A DNA stretch of 22,129 nt from a candidate division LCP-89 bacterium (GTDB taxonomy: Bacteria; Electryoneota; B3-LCP). The number at the start of each line of letters is the position of its first letter. Position 1 is the first letter of the stretch. The stretch covers positions 1 to 22,129 of the forward strand of contig JALGZU010000064.1 of the NCBI GenBank assembly GCA_025774735.1, written 5' to 3'. Below are positions 1-17,019 of the stretch, in pieces. The notes under the pieces are model-generated. The model was given only the letters and a program-made list of their open reading frames with translations. It searched no databases and was not told the DNA's origin. The translations under genes and the position numbers were made by a program.

Positions 1-934
1 CTACCCACGGATTGAGGCCGATTGCACCACCATTCGGGGCTGTATTTCCACTGAAAGTACAGTTGATTAATTCGGGTTCATTACCATAACAGAAAAAACC
101 ACCTCCGAATTCTCCGGCTGAATTTCCTAAAAAGGTACAATTGCGGATTATTGTGGTAGAACTAGTGCAATAAAGCCCGCCACCCCATACACTCGCAGTA
201 TTCTCCGTGATAAGGCAATTTTCGACGATTGTGTTACTATTACCTACCATAAGTCCACCACCCATCGTACCCGCTGTGTTTTGGCTGATAACACAGTGGC
301 GTACAATGGCTATGTTGTTGGCTCCACCTATTGAAATGCCACCCCCAGAATGCGATGGTGCCGAATTTCCGGTAATGGTACAATATTCTATTATGGGTGA
401 TGAAAATTCAAAATACATTCCTCCGGCCCCAGACCAGGAATTTCCGGTAATCTCGCAGTATCGGATGGTCGGTTGGGAAGAGTTCTGGCCGAAAATGCCG
501 CATCCCCAACAATCGCTAATCGTACAATTTAGAATTTCTGGGCTCGAATTATCGCAAAACAAACCGGCTGAACTGGATTTGGTTATCATGCAGTATTCTA
601 ATCTGCTGACAACGTAAGGAGAGAGGAAATCGATACCGCCCCAGTTTGGGACTCCCGTGTCCGGCAAAAACTTGATGCTGTCAGCTTCTGTTCCGATAGC
701 ACCCAGATACCCCTCAACGATGAAACTGTAATATCCTTGAAAGAGCACCTCTACGGCTGGTTCAATGTACAGCGTATCGTTCCAGGGCACCGTGATTTCA
801 CCCTCAATCAGGTATGGTGAACCGAATTCTTCCCAGACACCAGAAACATATCCCCCTGGTATGACCGTTTGCGCAGAAATGATTGCAGGCAAAACTGCTC
901 CCAGAATCAAAGTTTTCAATACTTTCTTTAACAT
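1..934 (-). CDS. Secreted right-handed beta-helix repeat protein, 3' end beyond window
   Basis: A frame open from ATG at 934 to the window edge gives 311 residues with no stop. It begins with a signal peptide (MLKKVLKTLILGAVLPAIISA, then Gln). Residues about 23-100 form a cap with the pattern IPGGYVSG..W, GEITVPWNDTLYIEPA and GTEADSIKF, common at the start of secreted beta-helix proteins. After it come repeats of about 22-30 residues of the type NCTISDC, YCTITGNSAP, NCLITENTAS and NCTFSGNTAP separated by GGG(I/L/F) turns, as in polymorphic parallel beta-helices. A GGAGG ribosome site lies 5-6 bases before the ATG, with a strong promoter upstream. The missing C-terminus probably carries the Ig-like and sorting domains seen in its neighbours (inference). 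The ligand or substrate is unknown. The gene is AT-richer than most neighbours. Confidence 0.85.
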   Translation of the reverse strand, partial: MLKKVLKTLILGAVLPAIISAQTVIPGGYVSGVWEEFGSPYLIEGEITVPWNDTLYIEPAVEVLFQGYYSFIVEGYLGAIGTEADSIKFLPDTGVPNWGGIDFLSPYVVSRLEYCMITKSSSAGLFCDNSSPEILNCTISDCWGCGIFGQNSSQPTIRYCEITGNSWSGAGGMYFEFSSPIIEYCTITGNSAPSHSGGGISIGGANNIAIVRHCVISQNTAGTMGGGLMVGNSNTIVENCLITENTASVWGGGLYCTSSTTIIRNCTFLGNSAGEFGGGFFCYGNEPELINCTFSGNTAPNGGAIGLNPWV

Positions 935-977
935 TTTGACCTCCACGGTAATAAAATAGGCTGATAATTATGTAAAT

Positions 978-1006
978 AATATAATAAATTCAATTAAGGA
1001 TGTCAA
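978..1006 (-). promoter_or_regulatory. Sigma-70-type promoter for the 1-934 gene
   Basis: Read on the minus strand: TTGACA (1006-1001), a 17-base spacer, and TATATT (983-978). This predicts a start near 971 and a 5' leader of about 37 bases before ATG 934. The same element precedes five other genes in the array. Confidence 0.75.
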
Positions 1007-1076
1007 GTAAAATTTTTTACTTCCTAAAAATTTTATCAGTGCTTTTTTGATTTATTTACATCATTAAATGAAACAT

Positions 1077-1103
1077 AAAAAGGCGACTTCTCGAGCCGCC
1101 TTT
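1077..1103 (-). terminator. Rho-independent terminator after the 1126-3108 gene
   Basis: On the minus strand the stem AAAGGCG/CGCCTTT (1097-1103 with 1079-1085) closes an 11-base loop and runs into TTTTT (1081-1077). It lies 23 bases after the stop codon. Confidence 0.8.
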
Positions 1104-1125
1104 GGTTTCTATCTATTTTGTTCGG

Positions 1126-3108
1126 CTACTTCATCAGCACCATCTTGTCAGTGGCACTGAATTCACCCGCCTGCATCTGATAGACATAGATACCGGAAGC
1201 CAGGTGCGACGCATCGAAGGTCACCTCATGAAAGCCAGCGTCCCGGTAGCCGTTCACCAGAACGGCGACTTCGCGGCCCGAGACGTCATACACCTTGATG
1301 CTGACTGTGCCTGCTTCGGCGATGCTGAAGCTTAGGGTTGTCATCGGGTTGAAGGGATTGGGGTAGGCGGACAACCTATGCTCAGTCGGCAATACCGATA
1401 ATTCCGATTGCCCCTGGTCGAAATTTTCACCCCAACATTCCCAACCGACGAGTTGAGAACCACCATCTTCCCCTGCCAGCTTCTCAAATTCAAAATGATC
1501 TTCGTCCCAGATGTCATCCGGGTAGATGCCGACATAGGCATCGTAGGTATACATGCCGGTCGGAGCAGCTGCTGGTACTGACTGTGTTCGATCTCGATTA
1601 GTCGACCAGCTAGCCGGTGCGGTAAAGTTCGGAAGATTGATAATCGGTCCGTATTGGCCTCCAGGGGGCAGAGTTGCCATCGTCCAGATGTCGAAGGTTT
1701 CAGGATCAGCCCCGTTATTGGCTACTTCGGCGTTGAAATCGAAACTGCCGCCCGAGGCGGGGATGCTGATAGGCGTTCCATAGGGCGTCAGCGTGATCGT
1801 GACGTCGGGCGTGCCTGCGGTTTCCAATTCGATTGCGTAGATCTGGCCTCCGTTGCCGAAGGTGCGGGCATGAACCGCCTTGCCGCCGCAGACGGCGTAC
1901 TGGCCGTCGTCCGAAATGGCCACGTCGAATATCGTCCCCGGCTCGTCGATGTCATCGAGGAGCTGCAGAATGACGTCTCCGCTGCTCATCTCGAATGCTG
2001 TGAATACGTCACCGTAGGTGGCGTCCAGCATCCCCCATGACCCGACCACGCCGACCGAACCGTCGTCGCAGAGGGCGACCGAAGAGATGTAATCTCCGTA
2101 CTGGTCGTAAGACCAGAGCAGGGTGCCGCCGATGTCGAAAGCTCGAACTTCACCGGCATAGGACGGAGAATAGACGAAATTGCCCGCCAGGACCGCCGAC
2201 CCGTCAGCCGATATATCTACGGCTGTCACCCAGCCGCCCATGTAATTGTTCCACTGTTCGACGTACCCTGTCGCCGTGCGCTGGTAGACGTGCAGCTGGC
2301 CGTAGAAATCTCCCGTGGCCAGCCATTCGGCATCCGCGTCGATGCCGGCCTTGGTCTGACTGTAATTGTCCGCCGTGAAGAACAGAGTCTGGGCGTTGAG
2401 ATCGAAAACATGAATTGCCCAGTAAGTCGAGACGATGATCCAGTCGTTATCCTCCGAAATTTCGACTCCGATCACCTGGGTCTCACCGCTGAAATCGGTC
2501 TCCCAGACCGGTGTCGGCGTGCTCGCATCGAAAACGGCCAGTTTGCCGTTATCTCCGCCGGTCTCGGCGCTGACCACCGCAACGTAATTGCCGTTGTCGG
2601 ACACGTCACAATCCACACCTTTGTAGCCCATGGGATGATAGTACTGCCAGGAGGGTGTCGGACCGGCGAGTCCAAGCCAGGCATTCAGAGGCGTGATGTC
2701 CCCTGTCGATGCCATCACGCTGCCGCTGTTCGAGACAGAAACGGGGAGATAAAAGTCGGGGAATTGATAGTATTCCCAGAGAGGACTGCCCGTACCGGAA
2801 ACCTGGTACTTGGAGACGCGCTCCTCGTTCAAGTACCATCCAGTGAGCATGTACACCCCGCTCCCGGTGACGTCGATGTTGTTGGCGATGGCGCTGGGGT
2901 GTTCGACGCTCCACAGCACCTCCTGATCCGTGGCTCCACTGACCCGTGGAGAGATCTCCCGGTCCTGGTTCGGCGTCCCAGGGGTGACACAGCGAACCGC
3001 CATTTCCCCGGGTTGATCTCCACTGATCTCCACACTAACCTGTGCTTGAACCGGCGCTAAACCGGCCAAACAGATACAAACAGATAAAACCACCAATCCT
3101 GTTCTCAT
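1126..3108 (-). CDS. Secreted WD40/PQQ-like beta-propeller protein with Ig-like module and C-terminal sorting domain
   Basis: 660 residues. The signal peptide is MRTGLVVLSVCICLAGLAPVQA, with Gln at +1. Residues about 55-425 are a beta-propeller built from repeats such as VTAVDISADGSAVLAGN, VGVEISEDNDWIIVS and IFDVAISDDGQYAVCGG, each followed by a strand with FD or FE and a Trp; I count about seven blades. Residues about 435-567 are the shared Ig-like module (TLTPYGTPISIPASGGSF, DIWTMATLP, NRDRTQ, WDEDHFEFEKL, GWECWGE). Residues 579-660 are the sorting domain (AYPNPFNPMTTLSF to the end DKMVLMK). GGAGG lies 6 bases before ATG 3108. It has its own promoter and terminator, so it is probably monocistronic. 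The likely role is an exported, surface-displayed or released propeller binding protein; no catalytic residues are apparent. Other possible annotation: PQQ- or WD40-repeat T9SS protein. Confidence 0.85.
   Translation of the reverse strand: MRTGLVVLSVCICLAGLAPVQAQVSVEISGDQPGEMAVRCVTPGTPNQDREISPRVSGATDQEVLWSVEHPSAIANNIDVTGSGVYMLTGWYLNEERVSKYQVSGTGSPLWEYYQFPDFYLPVSVSNSGSVMASTGDITPLNAWLGLAGPTPSWQYYHPMGYKGVDCDVSDNGNYVAVVSAETGGDNGKLAVFDASTPTPVWETDFSGETQVIGVEISEDNDWIIVSTYWAIHVFDLNAQTLFFTADNYSQTKAGIDADAEWLATGDFYGQLHVYQRTATGYVEQWNNYMGGWVTAVDISADGSAVLAGNFVYSPSYAGEVRAFDIGGTLLWSYDQYGDYISSVALCDDGSVGVVGSWGMLDATYGDVFTAFEMSSGDVILQLLDDIDEPGTIFDVAISDDGQYAVCGGKAVHARTFGNGGQIYAIELETAGTPDVTITLTPYGTPISIPASGGSFDFNAEVANNGADPETFDIWTMATLPPGGQYGPIINLPNFTAPASWSTNRDRTQSVPAAAPTGMYTYDAYVGIYPDDIWDEDHFEFEKLAGEDGGSQLVGWECWGENFDQGQSELSVLPTEHRLSAYPNPFNPMTTLSFSIAEAGTVSIKVYDVSGREVAVLVNGYRDAGFHEVTFDASHLASGIYVYQMQAGEFSATDKMVLMK
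1300..1369. repeat. 70-bp exact repeat, copy 1 (partner 5780-5849)
   Basis: The 70 bases encoding the start of the sorting domain (from the AYPNPFNP region through AGTVS) are identical to 5780-5849 in the beta-helix gene about 4.5 kb away. The match includes synonymous positions and breaks at mismatches on both sides. Confidence 0.9.
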
Positions 3109-3156
3109 GTCGATCCTCCTCGTTTGCCGCGACGTCCAGATTCAGAAATGCCTAAC

Positions 3157-3185
3157 AATATAGTTAATTCAAACGCCAATGTCAA
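3157..3185 (-). promoter_or_regulatory. Sigma-70-type promoter for the 1126-3108 gene
   Basis: TTGACA (3185-3180), a 17-base spacer, and TATATT (3162-3157) on the minus strand, giving a leader of about 42 bases. The ribosome site GGAGG follows just before ATG 3108. Confidence 0.78.
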
Positions 3186-3298
3186 GACACCAGAAAAAAT
3201 AACCCATTTTTTTCGCCGGGCAAACCGTAAGGTGGTGATCGAACGCTCTGATGTCTCCTTGTTGATGTGGCTTGACCTGTAGCCGGGATCATCTAAAC

Positions 3299-3324
3299 AA
3301 AAAGGGCGGACTTTCCGTCCGCCC
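3299..3324 (-). terminator. Rho-independent terminator after the 3349-5424 gene
   Basis: A perfect 8-bp stem GGGCGGAC/GTCCGCCC (3324-3317 with 3311-3304) closes a 5-base loop and is followed on the minus strand by TTTTTG. It starts 25 bases after the TGA stop of the propeller gene. Confidence 0.9.
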
Positions 3325-3348
3325 TGTATCTGCTATTACAAATCTGCA

Positions 3349-5424
3349 TCACCTCATCAGCACCATCTTGCCTGACGCTGAATAAGATCCTGCTTCCAGC
3401 CGATAGATGTACAGTCCCGACGCTAGTTCTGATCCATCGAAGACCACCTCATGAGTTCCTGCCTCCCGCCAGCCATCCACCAGGTCGGTTACCTTCCGCC
3501 CCCCGACGTCGTAAACGGCCAGGCTCACCAGATTCGCCTCAGGCAACTGGAACCGTAATGTCGTCACCGGATTGAACGGATTGGGGTGGTTCTGGCTTAT
3601 AAAATATCCCGCGGGAATGATTGTTATAGTAGCGTTGGCGGACGGTTCCTGGAAGACTTCACCGTCACTGGCCCATTCTTCGATCCAGGTACCATCACCA
3701 CTTAGGAGCTTCTCAAATTGCAGGGTGTCGGCATCCCAGAGGCTGTCCGGATATTCACCCACGAAACCGATATAAGTATAGATACCTGCTGGTGCACCAC
3801 CAGGTACCGCTTGAGTACGGTCGCGATTCAGCGAAGTGTACCCAGCGATTGTTAGGTCCGAGATATTGATAATCGGACCATAGACGACTGCATTCGGCAA
3901 TATTGCCATCGTCCAAATATCAACCATGTTTGGCTGTGGTTCGTTGTTTTCCACACCGATATTGTATTCGAAACTTCCACCGGTCCACGGAATCTGAATT
4001 GGTGAACCATAAGGTGTAAGAGTGATGGATACCGATGGTGGGCCATATTTGATGGTCACATAATCTTTATTCTCAGCGTAGTTAATGCTACCGCCGGTGA
4101 CGTAAACGTTGTCTTCTGCATCAACGGCAATTGCTTCAGGAATGTCCCATCCGTCCCAATAACCAGAGTATATCATTGACCACGACTGCTCACCGGTTGT
4201 CCCGTTGTACTTTAGGGTAAGATAGTCATAGTGAAAGTTTGACGAAAGCCAGAAAATATCTTCCACTCTTCCGGTAATGTATACGTTGTTATCCTGATCT
4301 AAGGCTAAGCCTTCGACCAAGTCATGCATCGATCCGTCATAGATTGCAGTCCATAGTTCAGAACCGTCAGGATCATATTTGATAGTCACTATATTTTTAT
4401 GAGTAGGTGGAACTACAGTCCCTTCAAAGAATGCATCCCCGCTGACAATAATGTTATTCTCAGTATCAACTGCCATGTATTTTATTTCATCATTATTGTT
4501 GAGTGGACCATTATAGGTGGTTATCCATTGCTCATTACCATTTGAATCATACTTAATCAGGACAAAATCATCGTTATTCCCCACTTCACGGGCATAACCT
4601 CCAACGTAGACGTTATAATCTTGATCTACGGCGACATCATTCGCGCCATCATCGTTAGTGTCCGATCCATCATGAATCCCAACCCATTGTTCAACGCCAG
4701 CATTATCGTATTTAATGATCACCAGGTCATCGGACCCACTGTTGGCGCAATCTCCTGCGACATAGACGTTGCCCAGGGGATCCACAGTTATTGCGGCGGC
4801 ATTGTCATCACGGTTGTAGCCACCATCGTAGAAGGCGCTCCATTGCGGATCACCGGCTGAGTCGTATTTTAGAGTCAATATGTCATAGTAATAGGGATGA
4901 TGGTAATTCGCTGCGACGAATGCATTACCATCTCCATCAACTGCGATATCAACAACATGATCGTCATCATTTTCTGGACTTTTCATAGTTCTAACCCAGA
5001 GAGAATCCCCGTTTGGATCGTACTTGATGACGAAAAAACCAAAAATAGTGTCGTCTCCCGGATCGAAATCGGTATCCCCTGTTAGGTAGATATTGCCTTC
5101 TTGGTCGAGCACCATGGCTTTAGGGATATCATCGCCGGCACCTGGGCCTTCGAAACCGCTCGACCACTGCTGGACACCCTCAGAATTGTACTTGATCAAA
5201 ACACAATTGAGATTATCAGAATAACCAGGAATTACATCACTAGTACCGGCAACGAAAATATCTCCATTGTAGTCGATTTCAAGACAATAAGCGCAATCAA
5301 AATCACCCGCATCATACCTGGCTACCCATTCCTTAATTATTTGGCCGGAGGAGACGTTGGCAATTCCCAATAGAGTAACGAGAACTACAGTTATTGTTAT
5401 TATTACAGAGATGTGCCTCCACAT
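3349..5424 (-). CDS. Secreted SBBP-type beta-propeller protein with Ig-like module and C-terminal sorting domain
   Basis: 691 residues. The signal peptide ends near NVSSG with Gln at +1. Residues about 30-463 hold eight repeats of about 50 residues with the pattern D.A..IAVD..GNVYVAG, then (D/Y).(L/V)(T/I)IKYD..G..QW, which matches the SBBP beta-propeller repeat family. Examples are DNAAAITVDPLGNVYVAGD and DIPEAIAVDAEDNVYVTGG. Residues 464-590 are the shared Ig-like module (TLTPYGSPIQIP, NRDRTQ, FEKL), and 612-691 the sorting domain (HPNPFNPVTTLRF to GKMVLMR). GGAGGT lies 7 bases before ATG 5424. The propeller part is markedly AT-richer than the tail, and its many Asp/Asn codons suggest a different origin (see findings). 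Likely a displayed binding or structural protein; no enzyme motif seen. Confidence 0.87.
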   Translation of the reverse strand: MWRHISVIITITVVLVTLLGIANVSSGQIIKEWVARYDAGDFDCAYCLEIDYNGDIFVAGTSDVIPGYSDNLNCVLIKYNSEGVQQWSSGFEGPGAGDDIPKAMVLDQEGNIYLTGDTDFDPGDDTIFGFFVIKYDPNGDSLWVRTMKSPENDDDHVVDIAVDGDGNAFVAANYHHPYYYDILTLKYDSAGDPQWSAFYDGGYNRDDNAAAITVDPLGNVYVAGDCANSGSDDLVIIKYDNAGVEQWVGIHDGSDTNDDGANDVAVDQDYNVYVGGYAREVGNNDDFVLIKYDSNGNEQWITTYNGPLNNNDEIKYMAVDTENNIIVSGDAFFEGTVVPPTHKNIVTIKYDPDGSELWTAIYDGSMHDLVEGLALDQDNNVYITGRVEDIFWLSSNFHYDYLTLKYNGTTGEQSWSMIYSGYWDGWDIPEAIAVDAEDNVYVTGGSINYAENKDYVTIKYGPPSVSITLTPYGSPIQIPWTGGSFEYNIGVENNEPQPNMVDIWTMAILPNAVVYGPIINISDLTIAGYTSLNRDRTQAVPGGAPAGIYTYIGFVGEYPDSLWDADTLQFEKLLSGDGTWIEEWASDGEVFQEPSANATITIIPAGYFISQNHPNPFNPVTTLRFQLPEANLVSLAVYDVGGRKVTDLVDGWREAGTHEVVFDGSELASGLYIYRLEAGSYSASGKMVLMR

Positions 5425-5476
5425 TATAGATACCTCCGCTTGATTCAGATGTAATAAATTTAGTGCTTGTCAATAT

Positions 5477-5505
5477 AATCTACTAATAAAATCCTAAATT
5501 GTCAA
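5477..5505 (-). promoter_or_regulatory. Sigma-70-type promoter for the 3349-5424 gene
   Basis: TTGACA (5505-5500), a 17-base spacer, and TAGATT (5482-5477) on the minus strand. The -10 is poorer than in the other units (TATATT there). Predicted leader is about 46 bases. Confidence 0.6.
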
Positions 5506-5545
5506 GTGATATTAAAAATTTACTTGATTTTACAAATGATATATT

Positions 5546-5585
5546 AAAAAGGGCACGAATTATGATAATCATCCAACTCGTGCCC
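5546..5585 (-). terminator. Rho-independent terminator after the 5606-7405 gene
   Basis: Stem GGGCACGA/TCGTGCCC (5585-5578 with 5558-5551) with a 19-base loop, followed on the minus strand by TTTTTAA. It begins 20 bases after the stop codon. Confidence 0.82.
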
Positions 5586-5605
5586 TAATATTATGTACAG
5601 GAGGA

Positions 5606-7405
5606 CTACTTCATCAACACCATCTTACCTGTTGTGCTGAAGTCACCGATCTGCATCTGATAGACATAGATTCCGGAAGCCAGGTGTGACGCGTCGAATG
5701 TCACCTCGTGAACACCCGCATTCCGGTAGCCGTTCACCAGAACGACGACCTCCCGGCCCGTGACGTCGTACACCTTGAGGCTGACTGTGCCTGCTTCGGC
5801 GATGCTGAAGCTTAGGGTTGTCATCGGGTTGAAGGGATTGGGGTAGGCGCTGAAGAGAACGTAACTGTTAGCTACGTTCCCCACTGTCGCGTCTGCGTTC
5901 TCAAACAGTTCCCCCCAGCATTCCCAACCGCCGACCTGAGAAACACCTCCATCTCCTGCCAACTTTTCGAAATCAAAGTGATCTTCATTCCAGATATTAT
6001 CGGGATAGACACCAACATAAGCGTCGTAGGTGTATATGCCTGCGGGGGCGCTTCCTGGAACCGCCTGGGTTCGATCCCGGTTGGCTGACCAGCTCGCTGG
6101 TGCAGTGAAGTCGGGCACGTTGATTATCGGCCCGTATTCACTGCCATTAGGTAGAGTTGTCATTGTCCAGATGTCGAAGGTCTCCGGATTCGTCCCGTTG
6201 TTGGCCACTTCGATGTTGAAGTCGAAGGAACCGCCAGAGGCCGGGACCTGAATAGGGGGATTATACGGCATCAGCGTCACGACAACTGGTGACGATCCAC
6301 TCTGATCGTAGTAAAACGCTCCCATGTCGGCGATGGTGTTGTCCGGATCGAGGGGGGATGTCGGATCACCCGCATCGATGCACGGAGACCCGGCCTGAAG
6401 CTGGAAATTCCCGCTGACCGGACTGACAAACAGGGGATCATCCATGATGTTACCGGTCCCTGAAAGCGATGCTCCGCTGCAGCTATAGGTGAAACTGACG
6501 CTGCCGTAACAATCAGGGCCATTCCCGGCCGAGTTGCCGTAGACAATGTTGTTGTATCCCTGGCACGTGCCCCAGTCAACAAAGATGCCTCCGCCATAAC
6601 TCGTATACGAACCCGACATGCCATTTTCAGAAATGGTGTTGTTGATGAATTGAGGCATGAAGCCGTCCACGTATACTCCACCTCCCTTGGACAGCGAGAG
6701 GTTATGGGCGATCAGGTTATGGGAGAAAGTTGCGTTAGAGTTTTGGCAGCGGATCCCGCCGCCTCCACAGGTGCTTCACGTGCCGGTACAGGTATTGTTG
6801 ACGATGGCGCAGTTTTTCACCTGGGCGCCGCTGCTCAGATTCAGGTAAATCCCGCCGCCGATATCCGCGGTGCAGCGGTCAATCTGGCAATCTTCAACCA
6901 GCAGCATGGTACCGTAATACGCGTAGATGCCCGCGCCGTCCTCCACGGTTTGGCAGCTTGATATCCTGGTATTCCTTACCGTGATATAGTTGCCTTCGAC
7001 GTAAATCCCGCCGCCCAGAATGTCCGTTCCATTATAGACGTCTTCGATGACGCAGTAGTTGAGGATACTCTGCACCGGAACCGTCGGGGTGAACCGGATG
7101 CCGCCCCAGCGATAGGTGGGATAGGGTGATTGGCGGATAAAGAGGATGGAATCGCCCTCTGCTCCTTCGGCGGTAAGCTTACCGTAAATCAACCAGGAGT
7201 AATGCCCCACATGCAAGAATTCCGTGCCGGGGAGAATCGTCAGCGAATCCCCCAGCAACACCTGGCAGTCCCCGTCGACGATGTAACTTCCCGGACCTAA
7301 TGTCCCTGATAAGGTGCCACTGATATGAGGTTGGGCAAAGGCTTGTACCGACAACAAGCTCACAGCCGCGAGCAATGCGAAGAAGACCGTTTTGGGTGCA
7401 GACAT
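5606..7405 (-). pseudogene. Secreted beta-helix protein with Ig-like module and sorting domain, interrupted by an in-frame UGA
   Basis: One frame runs from ATG 7405 to 5606 (600 codons) but holds a TGA at 6778-6776 (codon 210). Before it: a signal peptide ending QAFA with Gln at +1, a cap (GTLSGTLGPGSYIVDGD, DSLTILPGTEFL) and beta-helix repeats ending NNTCTGT. After it the same frame resumes with more repeats (GGGGIRCQNSN, GGGVYVDGF), a choice-of-anchor-Q-like stretch (SPCIDAGDPTSP, DMGAFYYD), the Ig-like module (PASGGSFDFNIEVANNGT, NRDRTQAVP, GWECWGE) and the sorting domain (YPNPFNPMTTLSF to GKMVLMK). The 3' part could be read from an internal start (TTG/ATG near 6670-6651) but would lack a signal peptide. 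GAGG precedes ATG 7405. There is no consensus promoter in the short gap to the 7524-9300 gene, so the two may be co-transcribed. Nonsense mutation or sequence error is the simplest explanation. Confidence 0.82.
5780..5849. repeat. 70-bp exact repeat, copy 2 (partner 1300-1369)
   Basis: Identical over 70 bases to 1300-1369. It encodes the start of the sorting domain in the UGA-interrupted beta-helix gene. Confidence 0.9.
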
Positions 7406-7488
7406 GGTTCCCTCATCATTTAAAGCTGGTTCTCGGAGTTCTCCCCCGAACCATTCAGATTCTTTTTTGTTCTGTACTATTAAGTCAG

Positions 7489-7514
7489 CCGGGGCGGGCA
7501 GATGCCCGCCCCGG
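7489..7514. other. Perfect 12-bp GC-rich inverted repeat between two beta-helix genes
   Basis: CCGGGGCGGGCA (7489-7500) and its exact complement (7503-7514) are separated by two bases. It lies 10 bases after the expected stop codon of the 7524-9300 gene. On the minus strand it is followed by CTGACTTAATAG, with no U-run, unlike the terminators elsewhere in the array. It could be a weak terminator, an mRNA-stabilising hairpin or a processing site. Confidence 0.7.
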
Positions 7515-7523
7515 TAGCAGTAT

Positions 7524-9300: not shown

Positions 9301-9367
9301 GTGAGCCTCCATTGATGTATTCAAGTATCAAGCTACATAATTCAGGTAACGTTCAAGTTCGAGGTTA

Positions 9368-9396
9368 AATATAATGAAAAATAACCATAAAGTCAA
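9368..9396 (-). promoter_or_regulatory. Sigma-70-type promoter for the 7524-9300 gene
   Basis: TTGACT (9396-9391), a 17-base spacer, and TATATT (9373-9368) on the minus strand; leader about 61 bases. Confidence 0.73.
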
Positions 9397-9481
9397 TAGC
9401 TTGAAAAAATAATCACATTTTTTTATATAATTAATTATCATTGGTTTAATATTTACTTTATCCAAAATGCCCTTATTGCAT

Positions 9482-9505
9482 AAAAAAAGACGGGCATTTC
9501 GCCCG
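9482..9505 (-). terminator. Rho-independent terminator after the 9533-11536 gene
   Basis: Stem CGGGC/GCCCG (9505-9501 with 9495-9491) with a 5-base loop, then TC and seven T on the minus strand (9488-9482). It lies 27 bases after the stop codon. Confidence 0.82.
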
Positions 9506-9532
9506 CCTTTCTTCTACTAATACAAATCCACG

Positions 9533-11536
9533 TCATTTCATCAGCACCAGCTTCTGGATGGTGTTGTATGAACCCGCTTCCATCCTGGCAAAGTAGATGC
9601 CGGAGGGAAGATTCGAAGCGTCAAAGGTGACTTCATGGGTACCCTGTTCACGTACACCATCCACCAGAGTTGCCACCAGACGACCCTGCAGGTCATAGAC
9701 TTGCAGTTTCACGGGTGATATTCCTGGTAAGCTGTAGCTTAAAGTCGTCATAGCGTTGAAAGGATTGGGATAACTCTGACCCAGCGAATAGCCTTTAGCC
9801 AGGGTCAAATCCGGTGCAACTGACAGCCATTCATCGAAGGATTCACCCGTATTGGTCCATCCTTCTGTCCAGTCACCTTCTACTACACCCAGCTTTTCAA
9901 ATAGGAAACTATCTGTAAAGGTGATATCATACGGATAGGTACCTACGTAGGCATTGAAGCTATACAAACCTGCAGGAGCGGGCGCCGGCACATATTGTAT
10001 TTGGAAGCGAGTAATAGGATCACACGGCATTAGCGTTACTGTGGCCGGTCCAACTACAGGGCCGTAAACCGCACCATTGGGCAACGTCACATCACACCAA
10101 ATGTCAGCTGTCATGGGGACACTATGTCCATTTGCTCCGAGGATATCGTAGTCAAATGAACCACCCGCAGCAGGGATGACGATTGGAGTAATAAGTGGAG
10201 TTAACTGTACACCGATGATCTCCGTAATAGTTTCGCCCATTGCAGCTCCGCCGGCACCGCCACCTCCAGCCATAACGTACCATAAATCAGGATCACCTAT
10301 TCCATTGGATTCTACTAGGATGGCTTCAATTGTAGAACCGGAGCTATCCAGACTACCGTAACAGTCAAAGACCCCATACCCAGGATCTATTTCACCTCCG
10401 CCCACGAGACTAATCAAGCCATTGACGACAACAGGATTGTCCACCAGCGCTAGGGCGCCAATAACAAGATTACCGGGGCCGCCTGCAGTACCTGCACCTG
10501 CAAAATAAGGCTCCCCATACCAGCCGCCACAGCCACCAACTCCACCTTGCCCTCCCTGTCCTGGAGGAATTATAATCGTACCACAGATATAGACACCGTC
10601 GGCGCCGCCACCGCCGCCACCACCACCGCCGCCGCCATTAGGGTCATTTAGACCATTAAAGCCATCTTCACCGTCACCACCTGGGAAATCACCCCCATCG
10701 CCTCCATCACCTCCATCACCTCCTCCATAGCCACTCGCTCCACCAGCGCCGCCATCACCACCCCAGAAAAAGAAAGCGGGTGCACCATCTTCTCCGTGTT
10801 GACCTGGAGGAGCACACAAACCGTTGCCGCCAGGGGCACCTGAACCGCCGGGTCCTCCAATGGCACCGCCGCCGCCACCGCCGCCGCCGCCGCCACTCGG
10901 ACAACCGCCTACACCACCACTTCCGCCACCACCTCCGGCGACGGTAATACCACCATCACCGCCATCGCCACCACCGCCGACACCAACCCCACCGAAGCCA
11001 TTTCCATCTCCGGTTCCTCCAAGTCCTCTCTCGCCACCGTTGGCAAAGATTTGGCCTGTGAAGTCTACTGTGACAGTGTTATCAGCAAAGAGCGCAATAC
11101 CGCCTCCGCCTGCACCTCCACCGCCACCAGCGCCGAGGTCAGGATTGCATTCACCGTCTCCTCCGGAAAGGTCTATGGTTCCACATACCATGATATCGGT
11201 ACCAGAGGTTAGGATCAGAGGTGAAATGCCGACCGCTCTTACTGTAGCGCCTTCTGCAATGAATATGCTTTCATAATCAAACACACGGACATCAACACCA
11301 CAACTACACAAAACTGTGGAGAATACATTTAGCACTCGACCAGAAAGGGTGGTATCGAATGGATCCGTGTTAAAGACCAGGGTGCCACCGGGAACTACAT
11401 TTAGAACCCCCAAAGAGTAAGTCGAATCATATTGGATCGGGAGTTCTACTTGGGCAAATGCCCCGTTGGTCCAGCATGCTACAGTCAGCATAACGAAGAC
11501 CAGCATCAATTTGTTAAAGCTGTAATACTTTTTCAT
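9533..11536 (-). CDS. Secreted glycine-rich protein with divergent Ig-like module and C-terminal sorting domain
   Basis: 667 residues. The signal peptide ends TNGAFA with Gln at +1. Residues about 30-130 look like beta-solenoid strands (GTLVFNTDPFDTTLSGRVLN, IFIAEGATVRAVG). Residues about 130-345 are extremely Gly-rich, with runs of 10-11 Gly and motifs such as GGDGGDGGDGGDFPGGDGED, broken by strand-like pieces (IALFADNTVTVDFTGQIFANG, CGTIIIPPG). Such segments usually form Gly loops between solenoid turns (inference). The Ig-like module (about 425-575) is the most divergent in the array: it keeps PAAGGSFDYDI, DIWCDVTLPNGAVYGP and FEKL but lacks NRDRTQ. The sorting domain is 584-667 with PNPFNA in place of PNPFNP, ending QKLVLMK. 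GGAGG lies 6 bases before ATG 11536; the mRNA leader appears unusually long. Probably an adhesive or structural surface protein; function not recognised. Confidence 0.85.
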   Translation of the reverse strand: MKKYYSFNKLMLVFVMLTVACWTNGAFAQVELPIQYDSTYSLGVLNVVPGGTLVFNTDPFDTTLSGRVLNVFSTVLCSCGVDVRVFDYESIFIAEGATVRAVGISPLILTSGTDIMVCGTIDLSGGDGECNPDLGAGGGGGAGGGGIALFADNTVTVDFTGQIFANGGERGLGGTGDGNGFGGVGVGGGGDGGDGGITVAGGGGGSGGVGGCPSGGGGGGGGGGAIGGPGGSGAPGGNGLCAPPGQHGEDGAPAFFFWGGDGGAGGASGYGGGDGGDGGDGGDFPGGDGEDGFNGLNDPNGGGGGGGGGGGADGVYICGTIIIPPGQGGQGGVGGCGGWYGEPYFAGAGTAGGPGNLVIGALALVDNPVVVNGLISLVGGGEIDPGYGVFDCYGSLDSSGSTIEAILVESNGIGDPDLWYVMAGGGGAGGAAMGETITEIIGVQLTPLITPIVIPAAGGSFDYDILGANGHSVPMTADIWCDVTLPNGAVYGPVVGPATVTLMPCDPITRFQIQYVPAPAPAGLYSFNAYVGTYPYDITFTDSFLFEKLGVVEGDWTEGWTNTGESFDEWLSVAPDLTLAKGYSLGQSYPNPFNAMTTLSYSLPGISPVKLQVYDLQGRLVATLVDGVREQGTHEVTFDASNLPSGIYFARMEAGSYNTIQKLVLMK
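10601..10636. repeat. GCC/ACC triplet repeat coding for poly-glycine
   Basis: Twelve consecutive GGC/GCC/ACC triplets encode eleven Gly and one Ala in the Gly-rich protein. Whole-triplet gain or loss would change length without shifting the frame. Confidence 0.85.
10865..10894. repeat. Second GCC/ACC triplet repeat coding for poly-glycine
   Basis: Ten consecutive ACC/GCC triplets encode ten Gly residues in the same protein. Confidence 0.85.
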
Positions 11537-11821
11537 GATATTCCTCCTTTGTTAGAGATTTAATTTCTAAGGATCTCTAGTGATACAGGTGGAATGGAAT
11601 CGACTTGTACTAAACCAGGATATTCAGGCCGTCCTTCGAAGCGCAAAGAGGCAACTTCACCTAATAACAACAGGTGCCATCCAATAGGTGATACTCTTAT
11701 TGATTTTTTTTACCTCCACTTTTTAGGTAAGGTTTTTTGATCCCTCGATCAGAAAGAGCGGGAAAGGGGTGAAATTGGATACAGAAGAAAAGGATCAGAG
11801 GTAGGGCTGGATTTGGAATGG
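11537..11821 (-). promoter_or_regulatory. Long predicted mRNA leader of the Gly-rich protein gene
   Basis: The promoter at 11828-11856 predicts transcription start near 11821, leaving about 285 bases before ATG 11536, against about 37-87 in the sister genes. The leader holds an inverted repeat TCACCTA/TAGGTGA (11657-11663 and 11685-11691), another TAGAGAT/ATCTCTA pair (11553-11559 and 11573-11579) close to the ribosome site, and an open frame of 49 codons (11709-11560) with no ATG. I recognise no known riboswitch. Together with 11822-11975 (promoter plus the terminator of the protease gene) this is the only gap over 300 bases in the window. Confidence 0.5.
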
Positions 11822-11827
11822 TATTTA

Positions 11828-11856
11828 AATATATAAAAGAATAAAGTAAATGTCAA
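11828..11856 (-). promoter_or_regulatory. Sigma-70-type promoter for the 9533-11536 gene
   Basis: TTGACA (11856-11851), a 17-base spacer, and TATATT (11833-11828) on the minus strand. Confidence 0.75.
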
Positions 11857-11926
11857 GTATTATTTTGAAATTATTTTTTAATATAACCTGATCTTTCACA
11901 TCCATGCATTGCAGAGAAAAAGCCAC

Positions 11927-11954
11927 AAAAAAAGGCGACCCACCGGGGGTCGCC
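11927..11954 (-). terminator. Rho-independent terminator after the 11976-14852 gene
   Basis: A perfect 8-bp stem GGCGACCC/GGGTCGCC (11954-11947 with 11941-11934) with a 5-base loop is followed by seven T on the minus strand (11933-11927). It lies 21 bases after the stop codon. Confidence 0.92.
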
Positions 11955-11975
11955 CTATTCTTGTGATTATATGAT

Positions 11976-14852
11976 CTATTTCATCAGCACCATCTTCCCG
12001 CTGGCGCTGAAGTTACCTGCCTGCATCTGGTAGACGTAGATGCCGGACGCCAGGTTCGACGCGTCGAAGGTCACTTCGTGTACGCCGGCGCTTCTGTACC
12101 CATTCACCAGCGCGGCGACTTCACGGGCAGTGATGTCGTACACCTTCAAGCTGACCAGGCCCGCCTCGGCGAGGCTGAAGCTCAGGGTCGTCGCCGGATT
12201 GAAGGGGTTGGGGTAACTCCGGTGCAGAGCATGAGCATCCGGAACCGTTCCGTCGCCCGAGACCGCCAGGCCTGCTTCGAACGACTCGCCCGTGTTGTTC
12301 CACGAGCCGATCGGCGTGCCGTCACCCGCCGGCAGCTTTTCGAAGGTGAAGCTGTCTTCGGAATACGCATAGTACGGGTGGATTCCGATATACGCATTGT
12401 AGGTGTAGGTGCCCGTGGGCGCGCTGGCAGGAACGGCCTGGGTACGGTCGCGGTTCGTGGACCAGTTCCCGGGAAGCGCAAATCCCATCACGGGACCCAG
12501 AGTCGGACCGTAGGTCGATCCGTTCGGCAGAGTCACGTCACACCAGATATCCGCAGTCGCCGGATCCGGGTCGTTGTTCGTTCCTGCGATATTGAAGTCG
12601 AAGCTGCCGCCCGACGCCGGGATCTGGATGGGAGTTCCCGAAGGTGTCAGCGTAATTGCCAGGTCCGGAGCGGTACCCTCGACCGTCACTTCGGCGCTGT
12701 AGCGGTAGTAATTCGCCTTGGTAACGGTCACCAGCATGGGGATCCCCGGAATCAATCCAGAGAGATCCACCGACACCGCGGAACCAGTCCCAGAAGCGCT
12801 GCCGACGACTGAGCCAACCTGGCTCAAGCCGATCAGGGAACCGTCATCGGCGGTGACGTCAAAGGTCGAAGCAGTGTTGGATACTGTGCTCGCATGACTC
12901 ACGGTCAGGTTCTGCGGAACTTCGGAAAAGAGCGTCATGAACGCATCGCCGTGATGGTGGAAGAGGTAGTAGGTCTCATCCTTATTCGACGAATTATACG
13001 GCCAACTGGATGCCTCCAGGTAATATTTACCGCTGGCATTACCGAAGCAGGGGCGTAAATTATCTTCACCCGTGGGATCCGCGCCGTAACCGGGATCGAA
13101 GTCCGGCCACATCAGGTCGTACACACCCCAGACGAACGTATCGTTCACGAATGAGTAGGATGTCTCCGAAGCCGCCAGGGCGCCCAGCGCCCGGTTCGGG
13201 TAGCGGTGGAACGCTTCAGTGAAGCACTCAGTCGGACTGTTGAATTTTCCCGTCAGGCAGTTGATGGTGAAAACGTAGGTGTAATTCTCGTTATAGAGCC
13301 CGTTCAGATCCCCGACGTCGTAATCAGGCTCTCCCCAGCCAGTCACCGAACCGTGATCGCGATGTTGGACGATGAAGGCGCCGCTGTTGATGGAGGCGTT
13401 GACGCCCGCGGCGTTGCCGCTCCAGTTCGTCAGGTGACTCGGATCGGCGGGAATGTAGCCCAGGCCGCTCGGACCGAAGTAGTTGACCACCATCCAGGTG
13501 TTCGAATTGCTCGACCAGGAAGTGCCCGGATACCCGGAATAGATGGCGTATTCCCGGTGAGGCCTCTTGCCGTGCACGGTCTCGAAGTAACCGTAAATCA
13601 CTTCGCAGCAGAGGATGAACCAACGGGTAGTCTGCCAGCCCCCAGCGATGAGAGGCGCATTATAGAAATTAGAATCGGTGGGGGGAGTGCGCTCGTACTC
13701 CAGCATCTTGCCGATCATAGTCTGGAGATGGGTATTATTTTGGGCTGTGATCCGTGCCACGGCCAGATCCGGCAGCTGATCGTTGTCGACGTCAGCGTAG
13801 AAATTATCGGAAACACAGCTATAACTGTAATTGTAGACCGGCGCCGTAATTCCGTAGGTGTCGCCAGACCACTCGTAATCTGACAGTAGCAAGACTGCAA
13901 CCGGCGGGATGTCCCAGTTGTTATAGGCGTTGTTGATGTAGTTTTCGATCGCCGTGGAGTTGTTCCCGCCGATCTCCGAGAGCGTAACCACGCCCGTCCG
14001 GATACCCTGCTCGCTGCGCCAATTTTTCAGGGTGTCCGCCCAGGCGATGAAGGCCGGGTCGTCGGGGACGATAATGATGTACTCGACGTTATCATCATCC
14101 GTCTGCGCGTGGCGGTCGAAGTTCACTGCGGGCAATGTCGTGTAATTCAACAGGTTCTGACGCAGAACCGGTTCCCACCAGCGGCTGCGCAGTCGGTCTT
14201 CTCCGAAATGACCGTTCCCGCCGACGAAACTCACCTGAACGAGGATGTCCCGATAAACGATCAGGTCTCTGGTGACAGGATTATACTGGAAGGGAGTGAT
14301 GCCGAGCTTGACGGCGTCCACGCCCCGCATCTGGGTGATCTCGCTCACCATCACCGGCGATGACGGATATGGAGCATCCAGTTCGTAGATTTCACGGTTC
14401 TTTTCGTACTTGAGGGGTGAATCGTCATTCTCGTAAGGGATCTCAAACGCAGGGATCACGTTGACACCGCGCAGCACCTCCGTGCGGTAATCGACGATCT
14501 CCAGCTGGACCTGAGCACCTTCCGGAATGGCGATGAACCTGGCCGTGCCCGGCAAATCGGGGGCGCCGGCGTCGTTGGGCAGGAATACCCCTGGAATGTT
14601 CACGGCCTGCATCATCTCCCCGTCAATCATGACGTCGGTGAGATTCATCGTGGGGACAGAGAAGACGATTTCGACTCCGCTGGCGGATTGATCCATCAGG
14701 TTGAATCCCGCTTCACCCCAACTGTCCTCGAAGGAGATGATTTCGGCGTTCGTTGCCGGCACCAGGAGAATCAGTGCACAGATGGAAACGAGTGCTGCAC
14801 CGAACCCTGTTCTGATCCACCGAGGATCTGGTTTCCCATAAAAATCGCGCAT
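11976..14852 (-). CDS. Gingipain-like C25 family cysteine protease with Ig-like modules and C-terminal sorting domain
   Basis: 958 residues. The signal peptide is long, with Arg residues before a hydrophobic stretch (about 17-36, ending PATNA, Glu at +1). Residues about 40-235 resemble the C25 propeptide (GTARFIAIPEGAQVQLEIVD, RDILVQVSF). Residues about 255-640 are the protease: YIIIVPDD, DNFYADVDNDQLPDLAVARI, the catalytic His in HRDHGSVTGWG (His500) and the catalytic Cys in INCLTGKF (Cys532). This matches the His-Cys dyad of gingipains. Residues 646-727 look like the Ig-like domain that follows C25 catalytic domains, 730-850 are the shared module (TLTPSGTPIQIPASGGSF, NRDRTQAVP, FEKL) and 879-958 the sorting domain (YPNPFNPATTLSF to GKMVLMK). 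AGGAAGG lies 4 bases before ATG 14852. It is the only clear enzyme in the array; it could act on external protein or on its sister proteins (inference). Arg or Lys specificity cannot be read from sequence. Confidence 0.92.
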   Translation of the reverse strand: MRDFYGKPDPRWIRTGFGAALVSICALILLVPATNAEIISFEDSWGEAGFNLMDQSASGVEIVFSVPTMNLTDVMIDGEMMQAVNIPGVFLPNDAGAPDLPGTARFIAIPEGAQVQLEIVDYRTEVLRGVNVIPAFEIPYENDDSPLKYEKNREIYELDAPYPSSPVMVSEITQMRGVDAVKLGITPFQYNPVTRDLIVYRDILVQVSFVGGNGHFGEDRLRSRWWEPVLRQNLLNYTTLPAVNFDRHAQTDDDNVEYIIIVPDDPAFIAWADTLKNWRSEQGIRTGVVTLSEIGGNNSTAIENYINNAYNNWDIPPVAVLLLSDYEWSGDTYGITAPVYNYSYSCVSDNFYADVDNDQLPDLAVARITAQNNTHLQTMIGKMLEYERTPPTDSNFYNAPLIAGGWQTTRWFILCCEVIYGYFETVHGKRPHREYAIYSGYPGTSWSSNSNTWMVVNYFGPSGLGYIPADPSHLTNWSGNAAGVNASINSGAFIVQHRDHGSVTGWGEPDYDVGDLNGLYNENYTYVFTINCLTGKFNSPTECFTEAFHRYPNRALGALAASETSYSFVNDTFVWGVYDLMWPDFDPGYGADPTGEDNLRPCFGNASGKYYLEASSWPYNSSNKDETYYLFHHHGDAFMTLFSEVPQNLTVSHASTVSNTASTFDVTADDGSLIGLSQVGSVVGSASGTGSAVSVDLSGLIPGIPMLVTVTKANYYRYSAEVTVEGTAPDLAITLTPSGTPIQIPASGGSFDFNIAGTNNDPDPATADIWCDVTLPNGSTYGPTLGPVMGFALPGNWSTNRDRTQAVPASAPTGTYTYNAYIGIHPYYAYSEDSFTFEKLPAGDGTPIGSWNNTGESFEAGLAVSGDGTVPDAHALHRSYPNPFNPATTLSFSLAEAGLVSLKVYDITAREVAALVNGYRSAGVHEVTFDASNLASGIYVYQMQAGNFSASGKMVLMK

Positions 14853-14945
14853 GTTGCCTTCCTCACTGTTTGATGAGTATCTTTATGTTGGGATAATTCG
14901 TCCTGGCGATGCAAAATCCACTGCGCTGGAATAATGCGGTGTAAT

Positions 14946-14974
14946 AATATAAGGCTTTATTTGGTAGAAGTCAA
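14946..14974 (-). promoter_or_regulatory. Sigma-70-type promoter for the C25 protease gene
   Basis: TTGACT (14974-14969), a 17-base spacer, and TATATT (14951-14946) on the minus strand; leader about 87 bases. Confidence 0.73.
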
Positions 14975-15028
14975 CATAAAAAAATATTCATGGCTTTTTT
15001 AAACGTGCTCCTGTCACTTCTGATACAT

Positions 15029-15063
15029 AAAAAAGCCGCTCGAACAACCCGAGCGGCTTTTTT
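15029..15063 (-). terminator. Rho-independent terminator after the 15082-17019 gene
   Basis: A perfect 8-bp stem GCCGCTCG/CGAGCGGC (15057-15050 with 15042-15035), 7-base loop, flanked by AAAAAA and TTTTTT, so it can act in both directions. It starts 19 bases after the stop codon at 15082. Confidence 0.92.
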
Positions 15064-15081
15064 CACTGTTATATCCGTCTG

Positions 15082-17019
15082 TTACTTGATCAGAAGCATC
15101 TTGCGCTGAAGCGTGCGCGTCCCGTCGTCCAGCTTGTAGATGTACACACCCGAAGCCAGTTCCGACCCATCGAAACTGACCACGTGTTCTCCGGGATGAT
15201 ACTCGCCCGAAGCCAATCTCGCCACGAATTCACCCCTGGAATTGTAAACCCTCAGGCTGATCTCGCCCGGTTGATCCAGTGTGAACCGTATGGACGTTTC
15301 CGGGTTGAAGGGATTGGGATAGTTCTGATCGAGCGAAAATGCCAGCGGAGAGGCGACGGTTCCCGGTTCCGGCTCTACACTTGTTGAGCTGGTGTCCACG
15401 TGGAAGGGTACGACCTGAGGCACCAGTGGTGTCGTGGGGATCAACTCGACGGGTACCTTGTGGTAGATGACATCGTTGAGTGTCCAGATCCCCTCGGTCT
15501 GGAGGACGTTGCCCGCATCGCGATCCAGAATGTACTGGATATGGCAGTCCCCGTCGACCACTTTGGCCAGGCTGGGCGTGATCTCGGACAGACACTGCCC
15601 CGGCGGAGCATTTTCGGGCGTCACCGTGTTGGTGATGTTCGTGCCTACGGCCCAGTTCTGCCCGCCGTCCGTGGACACGGACAGGTAGATTTCACCGGAA
15701 GGCCACCCCCCCTGACTGATCGCCGTCGTATCGACATCGAACACCTGATAAGCGCAATACAGGTACCCCGATGCTGGATCCTGTCCCAGCGAGGGACGCT
15801 GGGCTTTGAAGTGCCAGGCGCCGCATTCGACGAAATTCCACCAGAAATCATCGAAAGCGTTGTGAATCAATTGAAAATCGTCCGGGTACTCTTCCGACCA
15901 GTGCCAGACCAGAGAGGCGTGAAAGTAGAGTGTACCCTCAAGCGCGAAATACGACGGGGTGGTGAAGGCTACATGCAGGTAATCGTTTTGATCGAAAAAG
16001 GTGGTGATGTCCGTGTACGCACGGATGGTGTCCATATTGGCCGTCAGCGTGTCTGGCAGGAACGTGCTGTCCACGGGGATAAAATTGGTCAGGTTGACCG
16101 CCTGCCCCCAGTCGGGAGCGGCGCCGTCTTCGTCGATGAGCAGGTAGATGTCGTTGTTGTACTGGGTATAATCACCACCTGGAGCGGGAAAACCTTCATC
16201 ACGGCAAACCGTCCAGGCAAACGCGGTGCGGTTCGACACCGCGGATGCCGCCATATCGCCGGCTATGGTCATGGTCCAGGCGGCCTCCTGCCAGGGTTCG
16301 TAGGAGATCGAAAACAGGACCGGATCGTAGGTTCCCCGCGTGTAGTAATGCCGCTGGGGATCCCCGGGTAGACCCGAAGCCGGATTTTCGGTCGAGAAGA
16401 GGTGGATGTACTGGTTAAGATCGAACTGCATGCGCGGCCAGATGACTTCCGGTACGCCGGCGACCTGCGGAGTTTCGTAGGTGATAAAGGTTCCGGAATG
16501 AGGAAAGAAATCGGTGGCGACGGCGGTCGTATTATCTCCTCCCGGTACGTTCGTCCAGTGAAAGGCCGGAAAGGCAATGCCATCGAAATCGATATCCAGA
16601 TTTGTGAAACCGGCCCGAGCGGACGATTCCACCGGATAACCCTCTCCCAGCCAGCCCTGCACACCGGATGGATCGATGTAGTTGTAAAAAACGTGCCGAT
16701 CCGCTCCCATGGCGTCGCGGCCGCTCATCCAGGCGAAATGCAGGTAGCCGGAATCATCTTTTTCAACCATACGCCCTACGGTACCATTATGCTGGTTCTC
16801 GTACCAGGTTTGCCCGATCACGGTGGTGTCGCCAACGATCTCATCCGTGCCGTCCAGCACGCTGAGATTGTACGGCGGATAGACCACTGGAGCGCGCACG
16901 GTTTCCTCCCCTGTAGTCAGTGGATGATTTTCAAATGGGGTCGTCGGGTTGGAATTAGGGTTGGAGAGTGCCGTTGTCGCTGCCACAAGCGGCAGGATGA
17001 GAAAGTAATAGCGTCGCAT
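15082..17019 (-). CDS. Secreted BNR/sialidase-like propeller protein with C-terminal sorting domain
   Basis: 645 residues from ATG 17019, chosen because it opens directly into the signal peptide MRRYYFLILPLVAATTALS and has GGGGG 5 bases upstream; an upstream start at 17067 would add 16 polar residues. The middle (about 60-540) has repeats with DSGYLHFAWMSG, DQNDYLHVAFTTPS and ASGYLYCAYQVF and one clear Asp-box, STDGGQNW, typical of BNR/sialidase-like six-bladed propellers. I do not see the full arginine triad of sialidases, so an enzyme activity is not claimed. The sorting domain starts QNYPNPFNPETSIRF and ends RKMLLIK. It lacks the Ig-like module shared by the next genes and is the first of the array after the housekeeping cluster. 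No consensus promoter found upstream. Confidence 0.82.
   Translation of the reverse strand: MRRYYFLILPLVAATTALSNPNSNPTTPFENHPLTTGEETVRAPVVYPPYNLSVLDGTDEIVGDTTVIGQTWYENQHNGTVGRMVEKDDSGYLHFAWMSGRDAMGADRHVFYNYIDPSGVQGWLGEGYPVESSARAGFTNLDIDFDGIAFPAFHWTNVPGGDNTTAVATDFFPHSGTFITYETPQVAGVPEVIWPRMQFDLNQYIHLFSTENPASGLPGDPQRHYYTRGTYDPVLFSISYEPWQEAAWTMTIAGDMAASAVSNRTAFAWTVCRDEGFPAPGGDYTQYNNDIYLLIDEDGAAPDWGQAVNLTNFIPVDSTFLPDTLTANMDTIRAYTDITTFFDQNDYLHVAFTTPSYFALEGTLYFHASLVWHWSEEYPDDFQLIHNAFDDFWWNFVECGAWHFKAQRPSLGQDPASGYLYCAYQVFDVDTTAISQGGWPSGEIYLSVSTDGGQNWAVGTNITNTVTPENAPPGQCLSEITPSLAKVVDGDCHIQYILDRDAGNVLQTEGIWTLNDVIYHKVPVELIPTTPLVPQVVPFHVDTSSTSVEPEPGTVASPLAFSLDQNYPNPFNPETSIRFTLDQPGEISLRVYNSRGEFVARLASGEYHPGEHVVSFDGSELASGVYIYKLDDGTRTLQRKMLLIK

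Follow-up and report, generated by a model that had tools for sequence, protein, structure and literature searches.

How does a row of neighbouring genes encoding dissimilar secreted proteins come to end in one common tail, and does that tail pass between them? The question is raised by a 22,129-nt stretch of contig JALGZU010000064.1 (the whole stretch is called the window), which belongs to a bacterium of the Fibrobacteres–Chlorobi–Bacteroidetes (FCB) superphylum related to candidate division LCP-89. An earlier note on this DNA had claimed eight consecutive minus-strand genes for exported proteins, and reading of the open reading frames (ORFs) confirmed g1 to g8 at positions 2-17019, their export being predicted. 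The claim of a sorting domain common to the seven visible C-termini also stood: TIGR04183, the model for cargo of the type IX secretion system (T9SS), matched all seven, six of them over the 23-bit cut-off. A frame break within the g5 tail leaves only its first half in frame, which holds its score down to 20.3 bits. A module of ~109 residues, shown below to be a fibronectin type III (FnIII) domain, precedes the tail in six of the seven visible genes (g2-g7). We consider it probable that the row is a run of T9SS cargo cassettes whose tail DNA is exchanged between neighbours, with the FnIII module moving separately. The genes, all on the minus strand, are as follows.

g1, 2..946: right-handed beta-helix (PF13229, E 1.4e-25) with a hydrophobic N-terminus; C-terminus cut by the window end
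g2, 1126..3108: PQQ/WD-like beta-propeller (PF13360), FnIII at 1477-1803, sorting tail at ~1126-1365 (PF18962; TIGR04183, 44.2 bits)
g3, 3349..5424: SBBP/delta-60 propeller (PF06739, E 1.8e-22), FnIII at ~3706-4032, sorting tail at ~3349-3588 (TIGR04183, 31.2 bits)
g4, 5606..7405: beta-helix, FnIII at 5960-6286, sorting tail at ~5606-5845; a mosaic with g5-like FnIII and g2-like tail
g5, 7480..9324: beta-helix, FnIII at 7879-8205, sorting tail at ~7525-7758 with a frame break near 7615
g6, 9533..11536: Gly-rich N-terminus, divergent FnIII at ~9890-10216, sorting tail at ~9533-9772 (TIGR04183, 45.4 bits)
g7, 11976..14852: C25 (gingipain-type) peptidase with propeptide, FnIII at 12330-12662, sorting tail at ~11976-12215 (TIGR04183, 33.9 bits)
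g8, 15082..17019: older syntenic cargo gene without FnIII; sorting tail at ~15082-15321 (TIGR04183, 34.7 bits)

The N-terminal parts differ much as the earlier note had described, with beta-helices, a C25 peptidase, a Gly-rich region, and SBBP and WD40-like propellers; neither Pfam nor NCBIfam gave a match at E 0.01 for the BNR propeller assigned to g8. In g7, matches to both the C25 catalytic domain (PF01364, E 1.3e-49) and its propeptide (PF08126, E 5.8e-22) established the family, and a putative catalytic His and Cys were picked out by eye. Short tandem repeats lie at 10608-10894 in g6. Hydrophobic N-termini, seen by eye, were read as putative Sec signals. The predicted fold of the tails is a type A C-terminal domain (CTD) beta-sandwich resembling the C-terminal domain of PorU.

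Sharing of sorting tails between neighbouring genes

Within the window, tail and FnIII of the same gene pair gave discordant synonymous divergence (Ks). For g2/g4, Ks was 0.39 in the tail and 2.24 in the FnIII; for g2/g7, it was 0.84 in the tail, with the FnIII saturated; for g4/g5 the order was reversed, at 0.71 in the FnIII and 1.87 in the tails (48 codons). A MaxChi comparison of g4 with g2 and g5 placed the switch at column 328, next to the FnIII end at column 330: informative sites favoured g5 by 55 to 22 on the left and g2 by 115 to 28 on the right, and none of 5000 shuffles was as strong (p 0.0002). Four of the ten MaxChi triplets lay at the floor p, all comparing g5 with g2, g4, or g7. 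Likewise, the maximum-likelihood trees of FnIII and tail rejected each other (approximately unbiased test, 0.0027 each).

The same was asked of relatives, using 154 proteins with both modules together with the six window genes (160 in all; two were dropped and 158 used). Among 150 proteins without N-terminal similarity, the nearest tail came from the same genome in 107 (permutation mean 32.1, maximum 53) and the nearest FnIII in 84 (permutation mean 32.2, maximum 52). A synonymous divergence (pS) of the tail below 0.4 was found in 12 of 2161 same-genome pairs, and in 0 of 7783 pairs between genomes. We also counted for how many orthologs the tail or FnIII was nearer a same-genome paralog (183/189 and 174/189, respectively; 189 testable of 208 directed pairs). 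This count is biased, because the closest of many paralogs competes with a single ortholog, and we rely on the permuted nearest-neighbour and adjacency tests instead.

For adjacency, tails with pS <0.5 were called young, and the main counts exclude SURF9 pairs, because SURF9 shows little synonymous divergence anywhere (median 0.60 for tail pairs from other loci). Young tails were found in 9 of 38 adjacent same-strand pairs, 2 of 52 pairs lying apart at the same locus, 11 of 1859 pairs from other loci, and 0 of 7 opposite-strand neighbours. Adjacent pairs differed from other loci with a Fisher p of 2.7e-11 and a rank-test p of 1.5e-6; since pairs share genes, the Fisher and rank values serve as guides. 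Among adjacent pairs, the nine whose tails were youngest had FnIII modules near saturation (pS 0.71-0.81).

Forty more stretches were joined to the earlier loci, giving 294 unique tail proteins; these stretches were picked around known matches, and the frequencies are not genome averages. Among pairs with unrelated N-termini, tails were young in 18/87 adjacent same-strand pairs, 6/181 pairs apart at the same locus, 0/15 opposite-strand neighbours, 23/7298 pairs from other loci of the same genome, and 9/28651 pairs between genomes. With SURF9 included, the counts were 21/95 for adjacent pairs and 63/7618 for other loci. The pattern was also present in pairs not both in the first set (5/23 adjacent, 10/3453 other loci). 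By genome, young adjacent pairs numbered 11/47 in B3LCP, 4/13 in LacPavin, 2/8 in DeMMO, 1/10 in Mmb49, and 0/4 in Meg19. When tails were shuffled among the genes within each of these five relatives (82 pairs), the mean was 0.66 and the maximum 4 in 2000 shuffles, against 18 observed.

The extent of the shared tract was mapped in 24 same-locus pairs with pS <0.5 (18 adjacent and 6 apart, SURF9 left out). In 19 of them the tract started 236-263 nt before the gene end, which is the start of the sorting domain; three extended into the linker or FnIII, one of these being g2/g4, and two began inside the tail. The tract ended no more than 4 nt from the stop codon in fifteen pairs; in seven it ran 19 to >=200 nt past the stop, and in two it ended before it. 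Together with the presence and absence of FnIII described below, the recombination in the window, the clustering of tails by genome, and the young tails of neighbours uphold the module exchange that the earlier note had proposed.

The FnIII module and the export machinery

The earlier note was right that g2-g7 have a common module before the tail, which it had called Ig-like. A generic Ig domain was rejected: no Pfam family matched above cut-off, while a profile of 62 module members and the structure model led to the FnIII of RbmA. This profile matched both RbmA domains (E 1.9e-13); the profile of the six window copies alone gave 0.064. PF22021 matched 19 of the 62 members at E 0.1 (best 2.5e-05), and four window copies scanned singly fell below the Pfam cut-off. 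The predicted structure has the RbmA-like FnIII fold. Thus, the module is an RbmA-like FnIII domain (PF22021). Only 32 of the 62 members have Arg at the position that we aligned with RbmA R234 (our numbering), which was therefore not used as a conserved functional residue. Polysaccharide binding has been reported for the second FnIII of RbmA (PMC5605196), and by analogy the module here may bind polysaccharide.

Of 39 genomes of the phylum, 11 contain the module at E 1e-5. An FnIII-plus-tail query, for which a tail match alone can suffice, matched 3643 of the 7997 candidates scored in the protein collection at E 0.001. Among the 120 listed matches with 90-100% query coverage, the N-terminal domains included C25, C13, M14, M28, M1, subtilisin, agmatine deiminase, and others. 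We compared pairs whose N-terminal domains were >=45% identical over 75% of their length. In 70 of 184 such pairs only one partner carried FnIII, as with L064:1942-4308 (with FnIII) and L096:506-2503 (without), which are 65% identical. These results indicate that FnIII is gained and lost separately from the working domain and the tail.

The earlier note had looked to T9SS core genes for support, and these were scored in relatives' genomes of the phylum rather than in the window's own genome. SprA/Sov was over cut-off in 35/39 genomes and PorU in 37/39, and seven relatives (G001-G007) all have both. The PorV family was present in 7/7 of these, with 11-18 matches each at E 0.001 and several over cut-off; in G003, PorU adjoins PorV (C12:468303-472789). 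This part of the expectation is supported in relatives, whereas the genes of the motor (GldL, GldM) and ring (GldN) were not found: GldL and GldN matched in 0/39 genomes and GldM (TIGR03517) in 0/7, although no control genome matched either, so the search had no positive control. GldM_1st was over cut-off in 0/39, with two weak matches below it and weak matches in two control genomes too. One weak match, in G007 (E 0.0018, below cut-off), was rejected as GldM because the ORF looks MotA/TolQ-like by eye. This 510-aa ORF and two ORFs downstream (L115:12639-15710, G007:C16) look by eye like a Zorya-type defence set. It is possible that genomes with SprA, PorU, and many cargo genes and no GldL, GldN, or GldM match have a divergent or different motor.

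From known T9SS biology, export, cleavage, and attachment could proceed as follows. Each cassette, usually with its own promoter, would encode a putative Sec signal, a working domain, in most cases an RbmA-like FnIII, and a type A CTD. At the outer membrane, the translocon (SprA with a PorV-type shuttle) would recognise this domain, after which PorU would remove it and either anchor the protein on the surface or set it free. Neighbouring genes would exchange tail DNA by recombination, through gene conversion or unequal crossing-over. The exchanged tract would mostly run from the PNPFNP start to the stop codon, replacing the tail and leaving the working domain untouched. Because tail DNA is exchanged between neighbours, the cassettes would stay compatible with one machine. 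The event may have converted tails already in place, or it may have captured a new N-terminal part beside such a tail.

A bolder reading, which we hold to be less likely than not, makes the sorting tail a recombining socket. A new working domain arriving next to a cargo gene would gain a tail fit for export through local exchange. Such exchange, from PNPFNP onward and continuing between neighbours, would keep hundreds of tails readable by one machine, and the separately moving FnIII would dock many of the proteins to the cell's own polysaccharide, building a shared matrix of interchangeable enzymes and binding domains.

This arrangement resembles the T9SS type A cargo of Bacteroidota (gingipains, F. 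johnsoniae AmyB, RemA), which also combines a variable working domain with a C-terminal type A sorting domain; the predicted tail fold like the PorU C-terminal domain and the C25 peptidase are further points in common. Unlike that cargo, the genes here belong to an organism outside Bacteroidota, with at least 147-150 tail genes per relative genome; an RbmA-like FnIII precedes the tail, and GldLMN were not found. In F. johnsoniae, type A CTDs are all reported to use PorV (PMC12618676), whereas the relatives here have several PorV-family genes per genome. In P. gingivalis, T9SS-exported surface proteins are likewise diversified by recombination of related modules, through domain rearrangement and allelic exchange; the adhesin domains of Kgp and RgpA vary between strains (PMC5266723). 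Here, in contrast, what is swapped is the sorting tail itself, and the neighbours involved have working domains unrelated to each other. RbmA of Vibrio cholerae (PDB 4kkp, 4be5), to which the module is related in sequence and predicted fold, is described in PMC5605196 as a matrix scaffold of two FnIII domains binding Vibrio polysaccharide; here one FnIII stands between working domain and T9SS tail. A 2016 survey reported T9SS only in Bacteroidetes (PMC4793230). The parts of the literature covered on T9SS with domain shuffling, gene conversion, concerted evolution, or neighbouring genes held no report of CTD exchange between neighbouring cargo genes. The present results extend T9SS cargo biology to uncultured FCB bacteria and tie a biofilm-matrix type of FnIII domain to T9SS cargo. 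They also offer a testable account of how hundreds of unrelated proteins are kept fit for one export machine, in which the signal and not the cargo is homogenised between neighbours, and suggest how collections of surface proteins get built.

Genomic setting and competing explanations

The array is anchored by a conserved neighbour.

17216..18046, minus strand: SAM hydroxide adenosyltransferase (SAM_HAT; PF01887, E 1.9e-56), used for synteny and organism placement

Its identity is 73% to G007 (LacPavin) and 69% to G003 (B3_LCP, LCP-89). Beyond it, upstream of the array, lie LemA, nucleotidyltransferase-like, glycosyltransferase-like, and TPM-type ORFs, named from reading rather than from a library. 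The FnIII search of genome contigs found LCP-89 metagenome-assembled genomes, Tariuqbacter, SURF_9 (filed under Zixiibacteriota), DeMMO3_2 and SuakinDeep (filed under Calditrichaeota), LacPavin, Modern_marine.mb.49, SM23_40 (filed under TA06), and BS750m-G18. In this search, 93 of 126 pattern stretches were confirmed, and the best 80 were kept as 78 loci.

The block of glycosyltransferase, nucleotidyltransferase, LemA, and SAM_HAT is kept, with inserted extra genes, in G001, G002, G003, G006, and G007. The order LemA-SAM_HAT-g8 recurs in four relatives (G001, G002, G003, and G007); in G006, the ORF after SAM_HAT had no match. In G007 (L093), three tandem g8-type genes precede a fourth ORF that matches the tails; in G002 (L096), two such genes are present, with a fragment where the contig stops. 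The contig of G003 extends no further than g8. In G001, g8 is followed by three opposite-strand genes and then an ORF weakly similar to g1 and to tails. The order from g7 to g1 was not seen at the g8 locus in relatives, of which only G001 and G007 are comparable. From this gene order, g8 seems to have long been resident here, and the FnIII-bearing genes seem to have joined it later or in a particular lineage.

The relative genomes each hold at least 147-150 TIGR04183 tails (163-364 first-look candidates), and array genes have homologues at many loci there. Given these numbers and the older conserved neighbourhood of g8, the earlier suggestion of a locus special for display is not supported. 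The same numbers favour an ordinary chance cluster among hundreds of cargo genes, without evolutionary coherence. A clustering test in G003, using 122 of 150 listed matches on 8 contigs of known length, gave results on both sides. The longest FnIII run (4) was within chance (random mean 3.6, maximum 8), but 34 FnIII copies lay <3 kb from the next, against a random mean of 18.1 and a maximum of 31 in 5000. As neighbours also have young tails in common, we regard a mere chance cluster as doubtful. It is improbable, in our judgement, that whole genes were duplicated in tandem and their N-termini diverged beyond recognition, the tails looking young only through constraint. Duplication does occur here: g1, g4, and g5 encode related beta-helix proteins (N-termini 29-37% identical mutually), and G007 and G002 have the tandem g8 copies. 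In the window, the expansion by duplication that the earlier note had thought possible is visible only among these three genes. However, the comparison was made at synonymous sites, where the near-saturated FnIII of the nine adjacent pairs shows the tail to be younger than the FnIII before it, and similarity starts at the sorting-domain start in 19 of the 24 young pairs.

Selection fitting tails to their own shuttle and sortase, without DNA exchange, would also cluster tails by genome at the amino-acid level. Protein selection, however, should neither lower synonymous divergence nor favour adjacent genes, and both were seen, so that we find this explanation quite improbable. Least probable of all is transport to the surface along a different route, with the CTD-like fold being a remnant or a generic beta-sandwich: the SprA, PorU, and PorV families score high, PorU and PorV stand side by side in G003, and every visible tail matches the sorting-domain model. 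Most simply, the findings are explained by a large T9SS cargo repertoire with locally recombining tails, in which the export signal is uniform and the working domains differ.

Several results weigh against tail exchange between neighbours with a separately moving FnIII. Young tails are a minority of adjacent pairs even in the larger set, and Meg19 has none. In DeMMO the rank test showed no shift (p 0.57) in spite of its two young pairs. In the window, 0/4 adjacent pairs are young, and its one young pair, g2/g4, flanks g3. The other six MaxChi triplets were weaker, with uncorrected p values of 0.004-0.25. The g4 and g5 FnIII are 79% identical and their N-termini 31%; being far closer, the FnIII may have been exchanged as well. 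In the first set, FnIII pS was <0.5 in 1 of 38 adjacent pairs and 1 of 1870 pairs from other loci (Fisher p 0.04, rank p 0.18). Our confidence was lowered slightly because FnIII is not wholly exempt from exchange. The missing GldL, GldN, and GldM matches count on the same side, as do the demonstration of export genes in relatives alone and the breaks in g4, g5, and lemA.

Broken frames and transcription signals

The gene g4 consists of two ORFs split by an in-frame TGA at 6776-6778 (codon 210 of 600), and g5 loses its frame inside the tail. The lemA gene (18159-18687) lacks, at 18376/18377, ~14 codons that two relatives retain, and its frame is changed. Three broken genes in 22 kb suggest sequence errors or decay. 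In relatives, FnIII copies with an internal stop were seen at G003:C16:312947-313321, G001:C12:890-1324, G039:C70:3871-4203, and G002:C310:3070-3459, so broken cargo genes are not confined to the window. Rfam, tRNA, and tandem-repeat scans of the window gave nothing bearing on the question of tail exchange.

The earlier note had also described each complete unit as tending to have a promoter and a terminator. Using the pattern TTGAC[AT]-N16-18-TA[TG]ATT, with the starts of g1 and g5 set by eye, we found promoter-like sites 72-320 nt upstream of six of the eight starts; the same scan found none before g4, which closely follows g5, or before g8. Hairpins follow g2, g3, and g7. The sites, all on the minus strand, are listed below.

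978..1006: promoter-like TTGACA-N17-TATATT, 72 nt upstream of g1
3157..3185: promoter-like TTGACA-N17-TATATT before g2
5477..5505: promoter-like TTGACA-N17-TAGATT before g3
9368..9396: promoter-like TTGACT-N17-TATATT before g5
11828..11856: promoter-like TTGACA-N17-TATATT, 320 nt upstream of the g6 start
14946..14974: promoter-like TTGACT-N17-TATATT before g7
1079..1103: terminator-like hairpin after g2
3303..3325: terminator-like hairpin after g3
11932..11956: terminator-like hairpin after g7

Terminator-like sites in the window were not commoner overall than in shuffles (18 against 16.0, sd 4.7). Promoter-like sites were only mildly above shuffles (24 against 17.2, sd 4.2). In the relatives, 67 of 255 tail genes had a related form (N17, TA[TA]A[TA]T) around the 5' end, and the same scan found it for 2 of 6 in the window. 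The reverse strand of the same stretches carried it in 10, and the inside of the genes, among those long enough, in 0.

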